The notes under the pieces were generated by a model that saw nothing but the letters and a program-made list of their open reading frames with translations, did no database searches and had not been told where the DNA came from. Of a stretch of 64,000 bases of DNA, positions 2,335-29,182 are shown in pieces. The translations under genes and the position numbers were made by a program. Location of the stretch: the NCBI RefSeq assembly GCF_005049235.1, contig NZ_SUMD01000011.1:62001-126000 (forward strand), in the 5' to 3' direction. Within the stretch, counting starts at the first letter, position 1, and each line of letters begins with the position of its first letter. The DNA is from Rhodococcus oryzae (lineage in GTDB: Bacteria; Actinomycetota; Actinomycetes; Mycobacteriales; Mycobacteriaceae).

Positions 2335-4266
2335 CTAACTGATTCGGGGGTTGCGCACTTCCACTTCAGACTTTTCGGGCGCGCCCGGACGCACACCGAC
2401 GACCCAGCCGGTGACCTGGCGGGCCAGATCCTGCGCGGTGAGACCGAGTTCCTTGAGGATCTGATCTCGCGAGGCGTGGTCCAGGAACCGTTGCGGCACA
2501 CCGACATCCCTCGAGGGCGTGTCCACCCCTGCGGCGCGCAGAGCGGCCGAGACGCTGGAGCCGATGCCACCGTGCACTCCGCTGTCCTCGACCGTGACGA
2601 CCATGCGGAAGCCCTCGGCGAGAGTGACCAGCGCCTCGGGCACCGGCAGCACCCAGCGCGGGTCGACGACCGCGGCACTGATGCCCTGCTGCTCGAGTCG
2701 GACGGCCGTTTCGAGTGCCACCTCGGCGAAGGGGCCGACAGCGACGATCAGCACATCTCCCGTGCCCGCCTCTGGCATGCGCAGCACATCCACCGTGCCA
2801 CCGAGTCGCTCGATCGCCGGGATGTCCTCGGCCACAGCGCCCTTCGGGAATCGCAACGCCGTCGGGCCATCGCTGACCGCGAGCGCCTCCGCGAGCTCCT
2901 CCCGCAACGAGGCCGCATCCCTCGGCGCGGCGACGCGGATGCCCGGCACAATCCCGAGCAGCGAGAAGTCCCACATGCCGTTGTGGCTGGCGCCGTCCGG
3001 ACCTGTGATCCCCGCCCGGTCGAGAACGATCGTCACGGGCTGGTCGAGCAGCGCCACATCCATCAGCAACTGGTCGAACGCGCGGTTGAGGAAGGTCGAG
3101 TACACCGCGACCACCGGGTGCAGCCCGCCGAGGGCGAGGCCTGCAGCAGAGGTGAGCGCGTGCTGTTCGGCGATGCCGACGTCGAACATCCGGTCCGGGA
3201 ACCGCTCGCCGAAGGCCGCGAGGCCGGTCGGCCCCGGCATGGCCGCGGTGATCGCGACGATGTCCTGGCGGCGCTCGGCCTGGGCGACCAACTCCTCCGA
3301 GAACACCGAGGTCCAGTCCGCGGCGGGCTCGGACGTCGACCGCCCGGTGAGCGGATCGATGACGCCGGTCGCGTGCATCTGATCGGCGACATGGTTCTCA
3401 GCATGGGCGTAACCCATGCCCTTGCGCGTCACGGCGTGCACGATCACCGGTCCACCGAAGGACTTCGCCCGTCGCATCGCCGACTCGAGGGCGGCCTCGT
3501 CATGGCCGTCGACCGGCCCCAGGTACTTGATGCCGAGGTCGGTGAACATGACCTGTGGGCTCACCATGTCCTTGATCCCGGCCTTCATGCCGTGCAGGAG
3601 TTGGTACGCGGCGCGCCCCACCCACGGCATCTTCTTGACCATGCGCCGACTGTTGTCGAGGACCTTCTCGTAGCCCGGCTGCAGCCGCAGCGCCGCGAGG
3701 TGATCGGCGAGCCCACCGATGGTCGGGGCGTAGGAGCGGCCGTTGTCGTTCACGACGATGACGACCGAGCGATTGCGGCCCGCCGCGATGTTGTTGAGTG
3801 CCTCCCAACACATTCCGCCGGTCAACGCACCGTCGCCGACCACGGCGACCACGTGCCGATCCTGCCCGGTCAGTTCGAAGGCCTTCGCCAGACCGTCCGC
3901 GTAGGACAACGCGGCGGAGGCATGGGAGGACTCGACCCAGTCGTGTTCGCTCTCGGCGCGGCACGGGTAACCGGACAGCCCACCCTGCTTGCGAAGTGAG
4001 TCGAACTGGTCCATCCGGCCCGTGACCATCTTGTGCACGTAGGCCTGATGGCCGGTGTCGAAGATGATCGGGTCGGACGGCGAGTCGAAGACGCGGTGCA
4101 GCGCCAAGGTGAGCTCGACGACGCCCAGGTTCGGCCCGAGGTGTCCGCCGGTGGCGGAGACCTTGTGGACGAGGAATTCACGGATCTCCGTGGCGAGCTC
4201 CCGCATCTCGGCGGGGCTCAGCGCGCGCAGATCGGTGGGCGCCTGGATTCGAGAAAGGACACCCAA
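2335..4266 (-). CDS. dxs: 1-deoxy-D-xylulose-5-phosphate synthase
   Basis: Condenses pyruvate with glyceraldehyde 3-phosphate, the first step of the MEP isoprenoid pathway. The thiamine-diphosphate motif GDGALTGG lies near residue 145 and is followed by [19 protein letters not shown]; the transketolase central and C-terminal domains follow ([25 protein letters not shown]). The frame is open to 4440, but DXS proteins begin close to [17 protein letters not shown] therefore place the start at TTG 4266, giving 643 aa, the family's usual length. GGAGGG about 9 nt upstream supports it. The 58 residues beyond have no DXS character. Divergent from the glutaminase gene across 197 bp. Confidence 0.95.
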
Positions 4267-4424
4267 CGAGATCGCTCCCTCCAGAGACACAGCAAAGAAC
4301 TGCGTGAACACGGCGTCGACACCGTGCCGACCGACCCAGTCTACGGAGTCCGCATCCGACAACCACCCGACGTCCCGTCCACCCGCGCGGCGCGGCGGCG
4401 TTGCCTGCTCATTATGCCGAACTT

Positions 4425-4457
4425 CGGTGACCGAGGTCACCGCGGTGGACCTAGGCT
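4425..4457 (+). promoter_or_regulatory. Palindromic operator and -10 of the glutaminase gene
   Basis: CGGTGACC-GA-GGTCACCG at 4425-4442 is a perfect 8+8 inverted repeat. Ten bases later TAGGCT (4452-4457) fits the actinobacterial -10 TANNNT and lies exactly 6 nt before the ATG at 4464, with no Shine-Dalgarno between. The repeat covers the expected -35 region, so it could be a repressor or activator site. Which protein binds is unknown. Confidence 0.5.
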
Positions 4458-4463
4458 GACCCC

Positions 4464-6287
4464 ATGCGCAACGTCGTGGACGGCCTCATCGGGGAAGTGT
4501 TCGCACGGTGCCGGGAGAACCGCACCGGAGAACTCGCCGACTACATCCCGGAACTCGCCGCCGTCGCGCCCGACTCGTTCTCCCTGTGTATCGCCACCTC
4601 CGACGGATACGTCTACGAGTCGGGCGACGCGCACACCGAGTTCACCATCCAATCCATCTCGAAACCCCTGACCTACGGTCTGGCGCTGGCCGACCGCGGC
4701 CTGAGCGCCGTCGCCGAGAAGATCGATGTCGAACCGTCCGGAGAGCCCTTCAACGAGATCAGCCTCGACCCTGTCACGGAGCGGCCCCGTAACCCCATGA
4801 TCAACGCGGGCGCGATCGCGGCCGCCTCGCTGATCGACGGGGACGATGCCGAGCATCGATTCGAGCGACTGCGCCGGTGCTACTCCCGCTACGCGGGCCG
4901 CGAGCTCGCGCTCAACGAGGCGGTCTACCGATCCGAGGCCCGCACCGGTCACCGCAACCGGGCCATCGGCCACATGCTGCGCTCGTTCGGCATCATCGCG
5001 GACGACCCCGATGCGGCCGTCGACCTCTACTTCAGGCAGTGCTCGATCGACGTCACCTGCCGCGACCTCGCACTGATGGGTGCGACGCTGGCCAACAACG
5101 GGGTCAACCCGGTCACCCACGAACGGGCGCTGGCGCCTGACCTCGTCGAACGGGTACTGAGCGTGATGACCACCTGCGGGATGTACGACGCCGCGGGCGA
5201 CTGGGTGACGCAGGTGGGCCTGCCCGCGAAGAGCGGCGTCGGCGGCGGCGTGCTCGCGGTGTTGCCCGGTCAGATCGGGATCGCGGTGTACTCGCCGCGG
5301 CTCGACGCCCACGGCAACAGCGTCCGCGGGGTGCAGGCCTGCCGGGAGCTCTCGAAGGAACTCGAGCTGCACTTCCTGCACGTGACGCGCGCGGCCAGGT
5401 CCGCGGTCAGGTCCAGTTACTCGGTCGCGGAGGCGCCGTCGAGGCAGCGACGCGGGCAGGCCGAACGCGAGTCGCTCGAGAAGTTCGGGCGTCGCGCGCG
5501 GATCTACGAATTGCACGGTGACCTGCTGTTCGCGGGCACGGAGACCGCGGTGCGCGAGATCACCGCGCAGAGCGGCGAACTCGAGGCGGTCGCCGTCGAC
5601 GTCCGGCGGGTGGACGACGTCAGCGGGGTCGCGGGCAGGATGCTGTCCGACCTGTACGACGACCTCGGCGTCAAGGGCTGCCAGCTCGCGCTTGTCGACC
5701 CCGAGGGCCGGCTGGGGCACACCACCTCCGGGCTGGCTCCCGCCGCAGGCGGCCGGGTTTTCGTCGATCTCGACTCGGCCCTCGAGTGGTGCGAGGACAC
5801 TCTCCTGGACCGGCACTGCGCGGGCGACAGGCTGCCGGAGTCGATCACGCTCGCCGAACACCCCCTGCTTTCGGCGCTCAGCGCCGAGCAGTTCGACAGA
5901 TTCGCGGGTGAGCTGGAGATCCGGACTGTCGCCAAGGGCGAGCTGATCGTGCAGCGCGGCGATCCGGCGGCGGGCATATTCCTGATCCTCGCCGGGCGGG
6001 TGAGCAACACCCTGCAGGGGACGGACGGGGTCCCCCACCGGATCACCACACTCGCGCCTGGGATGACGTTCGGCGAGATGCCGATGCTGATCGGGGAACG
6101 GTTCCTCGGCGACGTGCACGCCGACACCGATGTTCGATTGGCGGTGGTGCCGCCGGACCGTTTCGCCCGCCTCAGCGCCGAAGCACCCGGCCTCAAGGTG
6201 GCACTCCTCGAGCAGTTGGCGGCGGGCGCATATGCCCAGATGGAGGCCGCGATCCGGTCGCTGGCGCCGCGGGGCCGCCTGGGCTGA
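4464..6287 (+). CDS. glsA: Glutaminase fused to STAS and cyclic-nucleotide-binding-like domains
   Basis: Hydrolyses glutamine to glutamate and ammonia. Residues 1-310 are a serine-dependent glutaminase: the Ser-x-x-Lys dyad is S64-I-S-K67, followed by [10 protein letters not shown]. At 607 aa it is about twice the single-domain enzyme. A STAS domain covers about 345-435 and a cyclic-nucleotide-binding-like fold about 465-595, with FGEMPML near 535. In that pocket the phosphate-binding Arg of the usual RxA step is not seen ([11 protein letters not shown]), so nucleotide binding is doubtful. The transcript is probably leaderless. Such fusions occur in actinobacteria; what the extra domains sense is not known to me. 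Confidence 0.93.
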
Positions 6288-9260: not shown

Positions 9261-10850
9261 CTAGACCTTCTCGTACTCCACGTCCGCAACGGACGGCTTG
9301 AGGTCGATCGTGGTCCGCAGCGGCTTGTTCGGCAGGAAGATCACCGCGATGACGGTGACCACCGCAACGGCCGCCGCGATCAGGAAGATCCGACCGGTTG
9401 CGTCGCCGTAGGCCATCCGGATCACGTCCTGCACGGGAGCGGGCAGCGCCTTCAGGTTCAGGTTGCCGCCGCCGCCGGGCGTGTGCGAGTCGATACCGAG
9501 CTTCGCGAATCCCTCCGCGGTGAGGTCGGTGACCCGGGTGGCCAGCACCGAGCCGAGCACCGAGACACCGATCGCGCCGCCGAAGGTCCGGAAGAAGGCG
9601 ACCACACTGCTGGCGGCACCGATGTTGTGGACGCTCACCGTGTTCTGCACCGCCAGGACGACGTTCTGCATCAGCATGCCGGTGCCGAGGCCGAGCAGGG
9701 CGATCATCAGCCCGATCAGCCACATGTGCGTCTCGTGGTCGATCGTGCTCAGCAGCAGGAAGCCGATGAGCTGCAGGATGGAGCCCGCGACGACGAAGCC
9801 CTTCCACTTGCCGAACTTGGTGATCAGCTGGCCCGAGCCGACGGTGCCCACCAGCATGCCGAACACCATCGGGATCGTCAGCAAGCCGGCCTCGGTCGGG
9901 GTGTGCCCGCGCGCGGTCTGGAAGTACTGGCCGAGGAACGTGGTGGCACCGAATAGTCCGACGCCGACCGCGACCGAGGAGATGATGGCGAGCGCGGTGG
10001 TCCGCTCGGTGACGATCTTGAGCGGGATGATCGGCGAGGTGGCCTTGCTCTCGACGAAAACGGTGGCGATCAGCAGCAGGACACCGATGCCCACCAGCGC
10101 CGCGGACTCGGCGGAGATCCAGTCGTAGTAGGTGGCCTTGCCCGCGAAGGACACCCAGATCAGCAGCACCGAGACGCCCGCCGTCAGCAGGGTCGCGCCG
10201 AGCCAGTCGATGGTGACGCCCTCCTTGCGGTCGGTCTCGATGTGCAGCGTCTTCTGCAGCAGGACGAGCGCGATCACGGCGAGCGGGACGCAGACGAAGA
10301 AGCACCAGCGCCAGCCGAGCCCGTCGGCGATGACGCCGCCGAGGACCGGGCCGCCTGCCATCGACACCGCCATGACCCCACCCATGTATCCGGAGTACCG
10401 GCCGCGGTCGCGCGGCGGGATGATGCTTCCGATGATGGCGACGACGAGCGCGGTCAGACCGCCCATGCCGATGCCCTGGATCACGCGGGCACCCAACAGG
10501 ACCGGCACGTTCGGGGCGAAGCCGGCGATGATCGAGCCGACCACGAAGATCACGATCGCCGACTGGACCAGGACCTTCTTGTTGTAGAGATCGGAGAGTT
10601 TGCCCCAGATCGGCGTCGACGCCGCGGTGGCCAGCAGCGCCGTGGTGATGACCCAGGCGAACTGGGTCTGGCTGCCGTTGAGATCACCGATGATCGTGGG
10701 CAGGGCCGTCGAGACGATCGTCGAGCTGAGCAGCGCGGTGAACAGCGCCGCGAGCAGCCCCGCGAGGACCTCGAGGATCTCGCGGTGAGTCATCAGCACC
10801 TCATCGCCCGGCGGGGCGGCGTGGCGAGGCTGGTTGTCGGTTTCGGTCAT
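9261..10850 (-). CDS. DHA2-family MFS multidrug efflux transporter
   Basis: A 529-residue drug:H+ antiporter with about 14 hydrophobic helices. Helix 1 has LSSTIVSTALPTI and the first loop has the MFS motif A (GKLSDLYNKK). VIQGIGMGGL in helix 4 and the motif C-like AGGPVLGGVIAD in helix 5 are typical of drug exporters. The start ATG overlaps the end of the upstream marR gene (ATGA), so it is coupled to its probable repressor. EmrB and LfrA are relatives. Substrates cannot be read from sequence; regulation by MarR is inferred from operon structure and the palindromes upstream. Confidence 0.92.
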   Translation of the reverse strand: MTETDNQPRHAAPPGDEVLMTHREILEVLAGLLAALFTALLSSTIVSTALPTIIGDLNGSQTQFAWVITTALLATAASTPIWGKLSDLYNKKVLVQSAIVIFVVGSIIAGFAPNVPVLLGARVIQGIGMGGLTALVVAIIGSIIPPRDRGRYSGYMGGVMAVSMAGGPVLGGVIADGLGWRWCFFVCVPLAVIALVLLQKTLHIETDRKEGVTIDWLGATLLTAGVSVLLIWVSFAGKATYYDWISAESAALVGIGVLLLIATVFVESKATSPIIPLKIVTERTTALAIISSVAVGVGLFGATTFLGQYFQTARGHTPTEAGLLTIPMVFGMLVGTVGSGQLITKFGKWKGFVVAGSILQLIGFLLLSTIDHETHMWLIGLMIALLGLGTGMLMQNVVLAVQNTVSVHNIGAASSVVAFFRTFGGAIGVSVLGSVLATRVTDLTAEGFAKLGIDSHTPGGGGNLNLKALPAPVQDVIRMAYGDATGRIFLIAAAVAVVTVIAVIFLPNKPLRTTIDLKPSVADVEYEKV

Positions 10851-11338
10851 AGGTGTGTTCTCCCCTGGTTCTGAGAAACGGCGTCGGACACGGCTCTCCG
10901 TACCGGCGGGGTCATGAAGGTGTTCTTGAGCCGACGGAGCGAGGTCACGGCTTCGTGGGCCTCTTCCTCACTCCATTCGCCCAGCAGGGTGCGTAGGCGT
11001 TCGGCCCGGCGTTCTCTGTTCGCCCTCAGCAGCTCTGTCCCGGACTCCGACAGCCGCACGAGCGAGACCCGCCCGTCTTCCGGATCGGCGTGCCGCTCGA
11101 CGAACCCGGCATCCACCAGATCCGCGATCTGTCGACTCAACGACGACTGACTGACGCACAGGTTGGAGGCGAGCTCCATCTGTCTGCACTGACCGACGGT
11201 GGCCAGCACGTGCAGCACCCCGAGAAGTGCTGGCGGAAGTCCGCTCGTGTCGGCGCCGCCGAGAATATTGCGCAACGCCCTCCCGAAGAGAAAGACCTCC
11301 TCGACGAGGTCCTCCGCGGTGGCGGTCTGCACGGCCAT
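10847..11338 (-). CDS. MarR-family regulator of the efflux operon
   Basis: A 163-residue winged-helix repressor. The HTH reads MELASNLCVSQSSLSRQIADLVDAGFVERH, followed by the wing DPEDGRVSLVRLS, the MarR hallmark. One Cys (GQCRQ) and one Cys in the HTH (NLCVSQ) are present and could confer redox sensing, which is unproven. First gene of a two-gene operon, overlapping the exporter start by 4 nt. Its promoter contains two TTGCAN palindromes, as expected of autoregulation. Confidence 0.92.
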   Translation of the reverse strand: MAVQTATAEDLVEEVFLFGRALRNILGGADTSGLPPALLGVLHVLATVGQCRQMELASNLCVSQSSLSRQIADLVDAGFVERHADPEDGRVSLVRLSESGTELLRANRERRAERLRTLLGEWSEEEAHEAVTSLRRLKNTFMTPPVRRAVSDAVSQNQGRTHL

Positions 11339-11366
11339 GGGCTCCCCTGAACAGAGTGATTGATGC

Positions 11367-11407
11367 TTGCAGTCTGCAACTATATATTGGTTGCATTACC
11401 CATGCAA
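11367..11407 (-). promoter_or_regulatory. marR promoter with two operator palindromes
   Basis: On the minus strand, -35 TTGCAT (11407-11402) and -10 TATAGT (11384-11379) are separated by 17 nt. TTGCAT-TACCC-ATGCAA (11391-11407) covers the -35; TTGCAG-T-CTGCAA (11367-11379) begins at the last base of the -10. Both share the half-site TTGCA. Such twin sites around a promoter are typical MarR operators. The same region faces the divergent Met-rich gene. Confidence 0.7.
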
Positions 11408-11454: not shown

Positions 11455-11515
11455 TAAAATCGGTGGTGCACACGATCATGTGCGAGTGGATCACCACCAC
11501 CGGGAACGGAGGTGA
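11455..11515 (+). promoter_or_regulatory. Promoter, palindrome and strong RBS of the Met-rich gene
   Basis: TAAAAT (11455-11460) is a good -10; no convincing -35 is visible. GCACA-CGATCA-TGTGC (11468-11483) is an inverted repeat placed where transcription should start, so it may be an operator. GGAGGTGA (11508-11515) is a perfect match to the 16S anti-Shine-Dalgarno, with GGAGG 8 nt before the ATG at 11521. Confidence 0.55.
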
Positions 11516-11520
11516 GACAC

Positions 11521-11604
11521 ATGATGTGGCAGGAGATGAGGGACATGTTCATGTCCTGGATGCAGCAGATGGGCTGGCAGATGCCCATGATGCCGATGAA
11601 GTGA
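11521..11604 (+). CDS. Methionine-rich 27-residue peptide
   Basis: This tiny frame begins MMWQEMRDMFMSWMQQ and ends in Trp-Gln then MPMMPMK. Eleven of 27 residues are Met and three are Trp, with no Cys or His. The C-terminal MPMMPM resembles Met-only Cu(I) sites; alternatively the Met could absorb oxidants, or the Trp/Met face could bind membranes. None of this is proven. Evidence for translation: a perfect GGAGGTGA at ideal spacing, a -10 hexamer and a palindrome upstream, and a clean stop 30 nt before the convergent methyltransferase gene. It is divergent from the marR-efflux operon. I know no named family for it. Confidence 0.6.
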   Translation: MMWQEMRDMFMSWMQQMGWQMPMMPMK

Positions 11605-11634: not shown

Positions 11635-12903
11635 CTACCGCACCAGCAGCGCGAGGCACTCCACGTGATGGGTCATCGGGAAGGCGTCGAAGGCACGCAC
11701 CTGCTCGAGCCGGTACCCCTGCGCGAGGTACAGCCCGATATCGCGCCCGAAGGCGGCCGGATCGCAGCCGATGTGGATCACCCGGCCCGGGCCCGCATGT
11801 GCGAGCGCCTCGATGACCTCACGGCCCGCCCCGGAACGCGGCGGGTCGAGCACCACCGCGCCCACCGGAACCGGCAACTCCGCCACCACCTTTTCCACCC
11901 GGGCCGCCCGCAGGTGCACCTGCCCGAGCTCCGCCAGCGCGCGCCTGCCGTCGTCGACCGCGCCGCGGCCTGACTCGACCGACACCACCTCGCCGTCCGG
12001 TCCCACCTGCTCGGCCAGCTCGGCGGCGAACACGCCGACCCCGCCGTACAGATCCCAGGCGATCGAGCCGGGAGCGGCCTCCGCCCACTCCCCGACCACC
12101 GCCGAATAGGTCTGTGCCGCACCACGATGCGCCTGCCAAAAGCCGGTCGCCGACAGCTCCCACTCCCGACCACCGACCCGCTCCACGGCACGGCCGCTGC
12201 CCTCCACCACGTGCTCGCGGCGCGGACCCGCCTGTGCGGCGCGCCTCGCGGTGGCGCCGCGTCGGCCCGGACTGCGGCGGCCGGTGCTCGAGACCTTTGC
12301 GGGCTCGATCTCCACCACGTGCCGAGCTCCGTCGCCGTCGACCGTCACCTGGATCTCGCCGCCCGGTCGCCAGTCACGCTCGGCCAGGCCCTGGTACGTG
12401 CCCAGTACCGGCTGCGGGCACAGCAGGTCGGTGATCACCTGGGAGCTGCGGTAGCCGTGAAAACCGGCCCGGCCCGCAGGGTCGACCGCGAGCCGGAGCC
12501 TGGTTCGCCACCCGGTTCCGTCTCCTGTGCCCGGCAGCTCCTCGACCTCGACCTCCCGCTCGACGCCTGCGATCCTCCGGAGCTGGTCGCCGACCACCGA
12601 CGATTTCATCGCGCGCTGGGCGTCCGGGGTGGCGTGCGAGAAGTCGCAGCAGCCGGCCCCTCCGGGCCCGGAGATCGGGCATCGCGCCGTCACTCGCGCC
12701 GGCGAGGCCTCCACGATCTCCACCGCGTCCGCGCGGCAGAACGAGCCGCCGCGATCCTCGGTGATCTCGGCCAGGACGAGCTCACCCGGCAACCCGTGCC
12801 GGACGAACACCACCCGGCCCTCGTGCCTGGCGACACAGAAGCCGCCGTGACCCGGATTCCCGAGCCGAACCTCGATGCTGCGGCCGTACCAGCTCTCGCT
12901 CAT
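11635..12903 (-). CDS. TRAM-domain class I RNA (uracil-5) methyltransferase, TrmA/RumA type
   Basis: A 422-residue SAM-dependent RNA methyltransferase, the counterpart of Rv2689c. The N-terminal TRAM domain (about 1-60, GNPGHGGFCVARHEGRVVFVRHGLPGE) binds RNA. A Cys group near 75-90 (ARCPISGPGGAGCCDFSHA) resembles the Fe-S site of RlmD but shows only three Cys in this stretch. The SAM fold includes WDLYGGVGVFAAELA, then VLDPPRSGAG (motif IV) and the catalytic-Cys region VIHIGCDPAAFGRD. Target base and RNA are unknown; 23S rRNA m5U is the usual assignment. I start at the ATG at 12903, which overlaps the upstream permease stop (ATGA); the longer frame lacks homology. Confidence 0.88.
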   Translation of the reverse strand: MSESWYGRSIEVRLGNPGHGGFCVARHEGRVVFVRHGLPGELVLAEITEDRGGSFCRADAVEIVEASPARVTARCPISGPGGAGCCDFSHATPDAQRAMKSSVVGDQLRRIAGVEREVEVEELPGTGDGTGWRTRLRLAVDPAGRAGFHGYRSSQVITDLLCPQPVLGTYQGLAERDWRPGGEIQVTVDGDGARHVVEIEPAKVSSTGRRSPGRRGATARRAAQAGPRREHVVEGSGRAVERVGGREWELSATGFWQAHRGAAQTYSAVVGEWAEAAPGSIAWDLYGGVGVFAAELAEQVGPDGEVVSVESGRGAVDDGRRALAELGQVHLRAARVEKVVAELPVPVGAVVLDPPRSGAGREVIEALAHAGPGRVIHIGCDPAAFGRDIGLYLAQGYRLEQVRAFDAFPMTHHVECLALLVR

Positions 12904-27891: not shown

Positions 27892-29094
27892 TCAGGTCGT
27901 GAGGTAGGGGTCGCTCGACTCCCCTGACGGCTTCTGCGGCCGCCGCAGGGCGCCGACGAGTGGCTCGACCACCCTCGCCGCAACCGGGCCCAGGATCGCC
28001 ATCAGCAGCACATACGCCGTCGCCAGCGCCGCGAGCTCGCCCTCGACCGCGCCCGCCGCCACCGCGAGGCCCGCGATGACGATCGAGAACTCGCCGCGGG
28101 CGACAAGGGCGGCGCCCGCCCTCGCCCGGCCCATCACTGCGACACCCTGCCTGCGGGCCGCCCACCACCCCGTCGCGATCTTGGTCGCGGTCGTCGCCAC
28201 CGCCAGCAGGACCGCCCAGCCGAGGACCGGCGGAATGGTGCCCGGATCGGTGTTCAGGCCGAACACCACGAAGAACATCGCCGCGAACAGGTCCCGGAGG
28301 GGCTCGAGTACCTTCGCCGCGTTGCGGGCGGTGGACCCGGAGATCGCGATGCCGAGCAGGAACGCCCCGACCGCCGCCGACACCTGCATCGCCGAGGCGA
28401 TCCCGGCGACCAACAGCGCCGCGCCCAGCAGCTTGAGGAGGAAGACCTCCTTGTCCTTGCTGTCGACGATCGCCGACACGTAGTGGCCGTAGCGCAGCGC
28501 GATCACCAGCACCAGGGTGACCACGCACAACGAGATCGCCAGCGCCTGCAGGCCGCCGAAGAAGCCGACCCCGGCCAGGATCGCAGTCAGGATAGGCAGG
28601 TAGACAGCCATGGCCAGGTCCTCGAACACGAGGATCGACAGCACGACAGGGGTTTCGCGATTGCCGAGCCTGCCCAGGTCGCTGAGGACCTTCGCGATGA
28701 TGCCCGAGGACGAGATATAGGTGACGCCACCCATCACAAGTGCACCGACCGGCCCCCACCCGAGCATGAACGCGACGATCACGCCCGGCGCCGCGTTGAG
28801 CACGATATCCACCGCACCCGCCATCCACGACTTGCGCAGCCCCGTGACCAGCTCACTCGCGGTGTACTCGAGGCCGAGCAGCAGGAGCAGCAGGACCACG
28901 CCGATCTCACCGGCCAGGTGCCCGAAGTCGCCGATGCCGTCGAGCGTGAAGAACCCGCCCTCGCCGAAGCAGAGGCCACCTACCAGGTACAGCGGGATCG
29001 GCGACATCCCGATTCGGCCCGCAAGGCGCCCGAGGACACCCAACGCGAAGAACACCGCGCCGAGCTGGATCAGCGAGAGCGCGGTGCTAGTCAT
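27892..29094 (-). CDS. K+/H+ (cation:proton) antiporter, KhtU/KefB type
   Basis: A 400-residue CPA2 antiporter with 12 or so hydrophobic helices (LFFALGVLGRLAGRIGMSPIPLYLVGG; ISSSGIIAKVLSDLGRLGNRETPV; EFSIVIAGLAVAAGA). VLSILVFEDLAMAVYLPI carries the ED pair of KefB/KhtU-like antiporters. With the TrkA_C protein encoded just upstream it forms a KhtT-KhtU-type pair that exports K+ (or NH4+) in exchange for H+. Expected to respond to pH or a nucleotide through KhtT. The ATG overlaps the end of a 31-codon mini-frame made by a tandem repeat. Confidence 0.9.
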   Translation of the reverse strand: MTSTALSLIQLGAVFFALGVLGRLAGRIGMSPIPLYLVGGLCFGEGGFFTLDGIGDFGHLAGEIGVVLLLLLLGLEYTASELVTGLRKSWMAGAVDIVLNAAPGVIVAFMLGWGPVGALVMGGVTYISSSGIIAKVLSDLGRLGNRETPVVLSILVFEDLAMAVYLPILTAILAGVGFFGGLQALAISLCVVTLVLVIALRYGHYVSAIVDSKDKEVFLLKLLGAALLVAGIASAMQVSAAVGAFLLGIAISGSTARNAAKVLEPLRDLFAAMFFVVFGLNTDPGTIPPVLGWAVLLAVATTATKIATGWWAARRQGVAVMGRARAGAALVARGEFSIVIAGLAVAAGAVEGELAALATAYVLLMAILGPVAARVVEPLVGALRRPQKPSGESSDPYLTT

Positions 29095-29182
29095 GGTGCC
29101 CCGGGTGGTTGCCGGAGCTCATCCGGTTGTCTTGGTCTTCGCCGGAGCTCATCCGGTTGTCTTGGTCTTCGCCGGAGCTCAT
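29087..29182 (-). CDS. 31-codon coupling mini-frame between khtT-like and antiporter genes (tentative)
   Basis: The frame encodes MSSGEDQDNR twice, then MSSGNHPGHHD. Its ATG overlaps the TGA of the upstream TrkA_C gene (ATGA) and its TAG overlaps the antiporter ATG. It fills the whole junction. It may be only a relay for ribosomes between the two cistrons rather than a functional peptide. No separate Shine-Dalgarno is needed or seen. Confidence 0.35.
   Translation of the reverse strand: MSSGEDQDNRMSSGEDQDNRMSSGNHPGHHD

Follow-up and report, generated by a model that had tools for sequence, protein, structure and literature searches.

MymT, the copper metallothionein of mycobacteria, is a small, unexported and Cys-rich protein. 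In CueO, CusF and Ctr1, Cu(I) is coordinated by Met-rich motifs that form segments of larger folded proteins, and MrpX is an exported periplasmic Met-rich peptide of hypochlorite defence, encoded together with a methionine sulfoxide reductase. CopM of Synechocystis is a periplasmic and extracellular copper-binding protein of a copper-resistance operon, cloned as residues 25-196 (PMC4335983). CruR (DUF2946) of Bordetella is a copper-sensing uORF, which senses copper through a CXXC motif and undergoes arrest at a C-terminal RAPP (PMC9426467).

The subject of this study is a micro-protein ORF in a 64-kb stretch of Rhodococcus DNA (69% GC; hereafter the window), which encodes MMWQEMRDMFMSWMQQMGWQMPMMPMK and belongs to a family of peptides with an MMWLH core. 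Like MymT, the product would be a small unexported actinobacterial protein, with Cu(I) holding only proposed on its side; MymT is Cys-rich and longer, whereas the window peptide contains no Cys and matched nothing in NCBIfam and nothing significantly in Pfam. Its MxM, MxxM and MPM spacings would be able to coordinate Cu(I) as in CueO, CusF and Ctr1, but the motif, a segment in those proteins, makes up nearly the whole of this one. It shares with MrpX a small size and a very high Met content; however, MrpX is exported and linked to msr, whereas the window peptide starts directly with the Met-rich putative helix, has no signal peptide, and lies among marR, MFS pump and RNA methyltransferase genes, with msr absent among the adjoining genes. 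CopM is comparable as a copper-binding protein of a copper-resistance operon but is much longer and exported (PMC4335983), whereas the MMWLH peptides have ~30 residues and no signal peptide. The resemblance to CruR (PMC9426467) lies in a small ORF at the head of some copper operons, but the window peptide has neither CXXC nor RAPP, the window offers no same-strand downstream operon (the next gene is convergent), and several family members likewise lack a same-strand downstream gene. By the features compared, the MMWLH family falls outside the MymT, CopM, CruR and MrpX families; if the metal-binding role proposed below is right, it would work like other small copper-holding proteins.

A methionine-rich ORF and its surroundings

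An earlier note on this DNA had singled out a Met-rich ORF of 27 codons, and reading the positions confirmed it: the product carries 11 Met and 3 Trp in 27 residues (40% Met) and ends in the Pro-Met tail MPMMPMK. The relevant features of the window are as follows.

11521..11604, + strand, stop included: micro-protein ORF, 27 codons from the first ATG or 26 from the second
11508..11515, + strand: Shine-Dalgarno sequence GGAGGTGA, read by eye, retained in R. maanshanensis
11455..11460, + strand: -10-like hexamer TAAAAT, by eye, without a clear -35; TAGAAT in R. maanshanensis
11468..11483, no strand assigned: palindrome GCACA-CGATCA-TGTGC (GCACA-N6-TGTGC), by eye, at the presumed transcription start
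10847..11338, - strand: MarR-family regulator, divergent neighbour, with no sign of a functional link
9261-10850, - strand: DHA2-type MFS pump
11635..12903, - strand: RlmD/TrmA-like RNA methyltransferase, convergent; start codon chosen by eye, stop at 11635

With a convergent gene on its right and divergent genes on its left, the ORF has no same-strand downstream partner, and there is no metal gene among its neighbours. The second ATG (11524, 26 aa) is the more likely start, since it is common to the window and R. maanshanensis while the first is absent from the latter. Simulation speaks against a chance origin of such an ORF: among 36,969 ORFs of 20-80 aa in 60 first-order Markov windows, none had ≥10 Met and none reached a Met fraction of ≥0.3. 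Among the window's own ORFs of that length, the runner-up in Met content has 12% Met. Elsewhere in the window (29087-29182, - strand) lies a further small ORF in which 10 residues are repeated exactly, MSSGEDQDNRMSSGEDQDNRMSSGNHPGHHD.

GGAGGTGA, the -10-like hexamer and the palindrome are present by eye and kept in R. maanshanensis, the hexamer as TAGAAT. A consensus promoter scan did not call TAAAAT at 11455-11460, its only promoter-like site being 11360-11388, adjoining marR. The consensus scan found no intrinsic terminator, and an Rfam scan of the 64-kb window gave no matches. Exact matches to TGCACACNNTCATGTGCG occur solely at the peptide locus, both in the genome of the window (G000) and in that of R. 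maanshanensis (G002). With two mismatches allowed, the palindrome has four 2-mismatch matches in G000 besides the exact site, and one 1-mismatch and five 2-mismatch matches in G002, where the control gave two. The palindrome is a possible operator. Folding of the 5'-UTR was not convincing (z = -1.67 in the window and -1.48 in R. maanshanensis). The predicted fold allows the Shine-Dalgarno sequence to pair with CACC bases lying upstream of it (window 11490-11516; R. maanshanensis L056 ~5334-5358), a pairing that might provide translational control of the peptide.

Six genomes of the genus, that of the window included, were compared at this locus. R. maanshanensis (NBRC 100610, NZ_BCXA01000047.1) carries MWQDMMNMFMAWMHQMGWQMPMMPMMPMM at the same place, but three other congeners (G001, G003 and G005) have marR without an adjoining Met-rich ORF; the best marR match of G004, at 38% identity, is no clear ortholog. 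Conservation at the same locus, proposed as a check, extends to R. maanshanensis and not to those three. A connection with the MarR-efflux operon, as the earlier note implied, is not supported, because the three congeners keep marR without the peptide and only the window and R. maanshanensis, of 50 family loci, lie beside this gene. Between these two genomes, 6 of the 78 ORF bases differ (7.7%), against 19% in two upstream intergenic stretches and 12 of 30 bases directly downstream; pS of marR is 0.198. At the 19-20% given by the flank and marR synonymous-site rates, ≤6 differences in the ORF have a probability of P = 0.003-0.005, so the stretch is constrained. Over 25 codons there are no synonymous differences (6.7 sites) and five nonsynonymous ones, none of which removes a Met or Trp; taken alone, the synonymous test on this pair does not point to purifying selection.

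The MMWLH peptide family

A profile built from the window and R. maanshanensis sequences, run over 401 genomes of the taxonomic family, returned 11 further rows, of which one was real, a third copy at another locus (in G305). A DNA pattern with ≤3 mismatches matched five of the 401 genomes, in every case a small Met-rich ORF, and none when reversed. Profile A5 gave 49 rows in the same genomes, and all 17 with E≤0.01 were family members, one of them degenerate (G343:C14); among the 32 weaker rows, 17 were read and comprised three real copies (G046, G212 and G343:C16) and 14 chance matches. Order-wide (249 genomes), profile A6 returned four rows, those in G000 and G107 being real, so that G107 was added, and a class-wide search (246 genomes) gave six rows with G000 alone real. 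With profile A7, 22 of 88 genomes in the genus of G380 matched at E≤0.01, one of them with only a broken copy, as did 2 of 14 in the genus of G212; all 26 rows from the former and both from the latter were read. With the columns of A7 shuffled, none of the 84 genomes searched in the genus of G380 matched at E≤0.1. This coverage is a lower bound, as G107 was among the 401 genomes searched with A5 and was missed there. The scores of the window itself (E = 1.9e-10 with A5 in 401 genomes, 2.7e-5 with the order-wide profile) arise partly by construction, its sequence being a row of those profiles; its independent link to the family is that the two-row profile found G305. Among the ORFs of loci L090-L132, members scored 54-82 bits, the degenerate copy 35 and all others ≤18.6. 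Eight further matches in another search were due to chance, and a 14-record search returned R. maanshanensis and 13 others, none of the latter a free Met-rich ORF.

In total, 50 loci were read for context and 48 carry an intact ORF, the exceptions being L099, which is degenerate and lacks a start, and L180, which has a stop in frame. The 48 intact peptides have 26-44 residues with 6-16 Met each, up to 50% of the sequence, and the core H..MMWLH..G..PPM.M, which is present in 47; His occurs in 47, Trp in 40 and Cys in 25. The window copy is the sole member without His and also lacks Cys: it has Asp in a column that is His in ≥90% of members, and Gln at the place of the second His. A GGAG or GAGG ribosome site precedes the start in 40 of the 48, a count that leans upward because the start was picked by the best site, and the other eight have weak sites only. 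The earlier note had taken the ORF for a real small gene and had named a lack of conservation in related genomes among the outcomes that would speak against it; R. maanshanensis and the wider family retain both the Met pattern and the ribosome site, which supports the gene.

For twelve copies of 28 codons, ten from genus g23 and two from Rhodococcus plasmids, comparison of all pairs gave pS 0.33 and pN 0.07 (0.073), from which it follows that those copies are translated; G305 against R. opacus gave pS 0.30 and pN 0.07. The N-terminal half of the peptides probably forms an amphipathic helix, with the Pro-Met tail after it: the hydrophobic moment of four relatives was reached by only 27, 33, 105 and 151 of 5000 shuffles. 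A membrane-active helix had been among the roles suggested for the window peptide, and an amphipathic helix is compatible with it; the moment of the window segment was reached by 476 of 5000 shuffles.

Both the gene and the family, which occurs in Rhodococcus-like and related genera (genus names are inferred except for G002 and the plasmids), are well supported, and the family is apparently undescribed. NCBIfam gave no match at E≤1 for any of the 33 members scanned; the Pfam matches, three in number and isolated (E 0.14-0.2), and a single PHROGs match (0.24) seem due to chance. The family profile had no match in the PDB at E≤10, and a full-text literature search gave no description of a Met-rich MMWLH family in the titles or abstract openings among the matches listed.

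Gene neighbourhoods and plasmid copies

A copper P-type ATPase and/or multicopper oxidase gene lies within 3.5 kb of the peptide at 6 of the 50 loci, in three genera (L103, L106, L107, L170, L173 and L180, the peptide of L180 being broken), and at none of the other 44. In G380 the peptide has a multicopper oxidase gene on one side and that of a copper P-type ATPase on the other, and in G212 it is likewise flanked by ATPase and oxidase; all six loci were assigned by sequence thresholds, and for these two the gene families were confirmed by Pfam and NCBIfam. A gene for a small SHOCT-domain membrane protein is found within 600 bp at 25 of the 50 loci, upstream in the Rhodococcus-type copies and L107 and downstream in the genus of G380, where this one-helix protein begins MMMWYGNGMGGWG / MMMWYGNGMGGWGYALM. 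By the same sequence thresholds, none of 52 distinct unrelated control loci (187 kb, mostly 3-kb stretches with 1.5 kb on either side) had a SHOCT or copper ATPase/oxidase gene; the smaller control span is not the cause of the difference, since the nearest copper gene lies ≤0.6 kb from the peptide at all six copper loci. No SHOCT protein is encoded beside the window copy, and none was matched at E≤0.001 in G000 or G002.

All 11 Rhodococcus-type loci examined (L092-L098, L100, L102, L123 and L124) have AAAGACNCTGTR, often as GGCCGAAAGACCCTGTG, 95-110 bases before the SHOCT start, which indicates that peptide and SHOCT protein are probably co-regulated and that the sequence is a regulatory site shared among these loci. 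Many loci lie in stress-gene clusters, with universal stress proteins, a wax-ester synthase and a beta-ketoacyl synthase III as neighbours; ArsP-like and FTR1-like permeases (named by eye) and ArsR genes also occur, and one member has a catalase gene on one side and an ArsR gene of the Rv2640c family on the other. With one mismatch allowed, two candidate DosR-type boxes were found within 300 bp upstream of the peptide (G046 and G380), and several further off.

Annotation and filtered protein searches can easily pass over genes this short and Met-biased. In PLSDB (72,556 plasmid records), protein-mode BLAST found no copy, and tblastn against phages gave no match, with low-complexity masking a possible cause in both cases. 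DNA-mode BLAST of the same plasmid collection matched ten records, nine from Rhodococcus and one due to chance; beneath the nine, the PLSDB gene table, which is known to be incomplete, lists no gene for seven and a hypothetical protein for one, and the remaining record is unannotated. Four of these loci were read, on pDK1, the BH4 plasmid, WAY2 pRWAY01 and R. opacus pRop44186_a. The pRWAY01 member of Rhodococcus sp. WAY2 (L125:4015-4146), listed as 'hypothetical protein', has 44 residues with an internal tandem duplication of the core (MMWLHGAGxLPH). On pRop44186_a, a large plasmid, the peptide MSQQMMDMMHMFMSWMQSMGWSMPMWMPMPMM is flanked by transposase and cupin genes (L126 ~3480-4860) and is of the same subtype as the window copy, an arrangement consistent with movement as a single gene. 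In four genomes or plasmids, this subtype has thus been seen at three loci unrelated to one another (that of the window and R. maanshanensis, that of G305 and that of R. opacus), and at each of them SHOCT, ATPase and oxidase genes are missing from the vicinity. At the six plasmid multicopper-oxidase loci that were read, of 79 records, there was no family member.

A proposed soft-metal role and its alternatives

The many Met, the near-invariant His, the frequent Cys and the copper loci together point to a membrane role involving Cu(I) or some comparable soft ion. Most of the loci read, on the other hand, are not copper loci, which speaks against such a role, as do the plasmid multicopper-oxidase loci without a member. 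Our best explanation is a micro-protein that is translated, associates with the membrane and binds Cu(I) or another soft metal, a reading that stands about an even chance of being right; we infer the metal role itself with equally balanced confidence. The window ORF would be a single-gene transcription unit. Its product, like the other family peptides, leaves no room for a signal peptide and would sit on the inner face of the membrane; its first part, M..M..HxFMMWLHxMG, would be a short amphipathic helix, and the Pro-Met tail behind it, PPMxMMPM, would be flexible. Met thioethers would bind the ion, with the conserved His as an extra ligand in most members and Cys in about half, and the peptide might act as a sink or hand-over partner near membrane metal proteins such as the copper P-type ATPase or the SHOCT protein. 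The window copy would be a divergent orphan subtype with Met-only ligands; for this copy a metal role can only be extrapolated, as it has no His or Cys, no metal gene nearby and no SHOCT match in its genome. Of the three roles suggested earlier, copper binding is the best candidate: relatives inside copper loci support it indirectly, but the window copy itself has no metal-gene neighbours.

The same evidence has been weighed against several other readings. The peptide could be a modulator in the membrane, acting on a transporter or on the SHOCT protein, its Met and Trp serving helix packing rather than metal. The amphipathic N-terminal segment would fit this, its moment being matched by ≤151 of 5000 shuffles in four of five sequences (the window segment being the fifth), as would the one-helix SHOCT partner at 25 of 50 loci; half of the loci, however, have no nearby SHOCT gene, G000 and G002 have no match at all at the threshold used, and Leu, Ile or Val would serve packing equally well, leaving the Met bias and Pro-Met tail unexplained. 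We consider this modulator unlikely, if worth keeping in mind. A sacrificial antioxidant, by analogy with MrpX, whose Met would scavenge hypochlorite or other oxidants and be recycled by methionine sulfoxide reductases, could draw on the extreme Met content, the member beside catalase and the stress-gene clusters, but is improbable given a peptide too short for a signal peptide and fixed H, W, G and P positions that a scavenger would not need.

Very improbable, too, is a leader or sensor peptide whose translation would control a downstream gene, as with the CruR uORF. Some members do lie directly 5' of a gene on their own strand, for a copper ATPase, a SHOCT protein or another product, and the C-terminus is Pro-rich; yet the conservation spans the whole peptide, and seven copies (those of the window, R. 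maanshanensis, G305, G212, G107, G876 and one of G849, L166) are followed by a convergent gene, so that they have nothing downstream to control. The absence of the ORF at this place in the three congeners keeping marR (G004 having no clear ortholog) is what might be expected of a chance ORF in a regulatory intergenic region, but the family evidence, with its coding selection and the shuffled-profile and Markov controls, contradicts this reading and makes its probability negligible.

Returning to the soft-metal reading, we advance a more specific version as a tentative suggestion that may well prove wrong: a Met/His/Cys membrane helix with a Pro-Met tail would be among the smallest dedicated relays for Cu(I) or soft metals, often paired with a SHOCT protein and located in copper-efflux and stress loci, and the window lineage would be a partnerless, Met-only single-gene cassette moving between loci. 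If copper binding is confirmed, a minimal Met-based metal site would become available for study, and the copper and stress physiology of Rhodococcus-like bacteria would gain a new component. At four loci in the genus of G380 (L157, L158, L160 and L167), ArsP-like or FTR1-like permease genes, assigned by eye, adjoin the peptide; such neighbours may mean metals other than copper.
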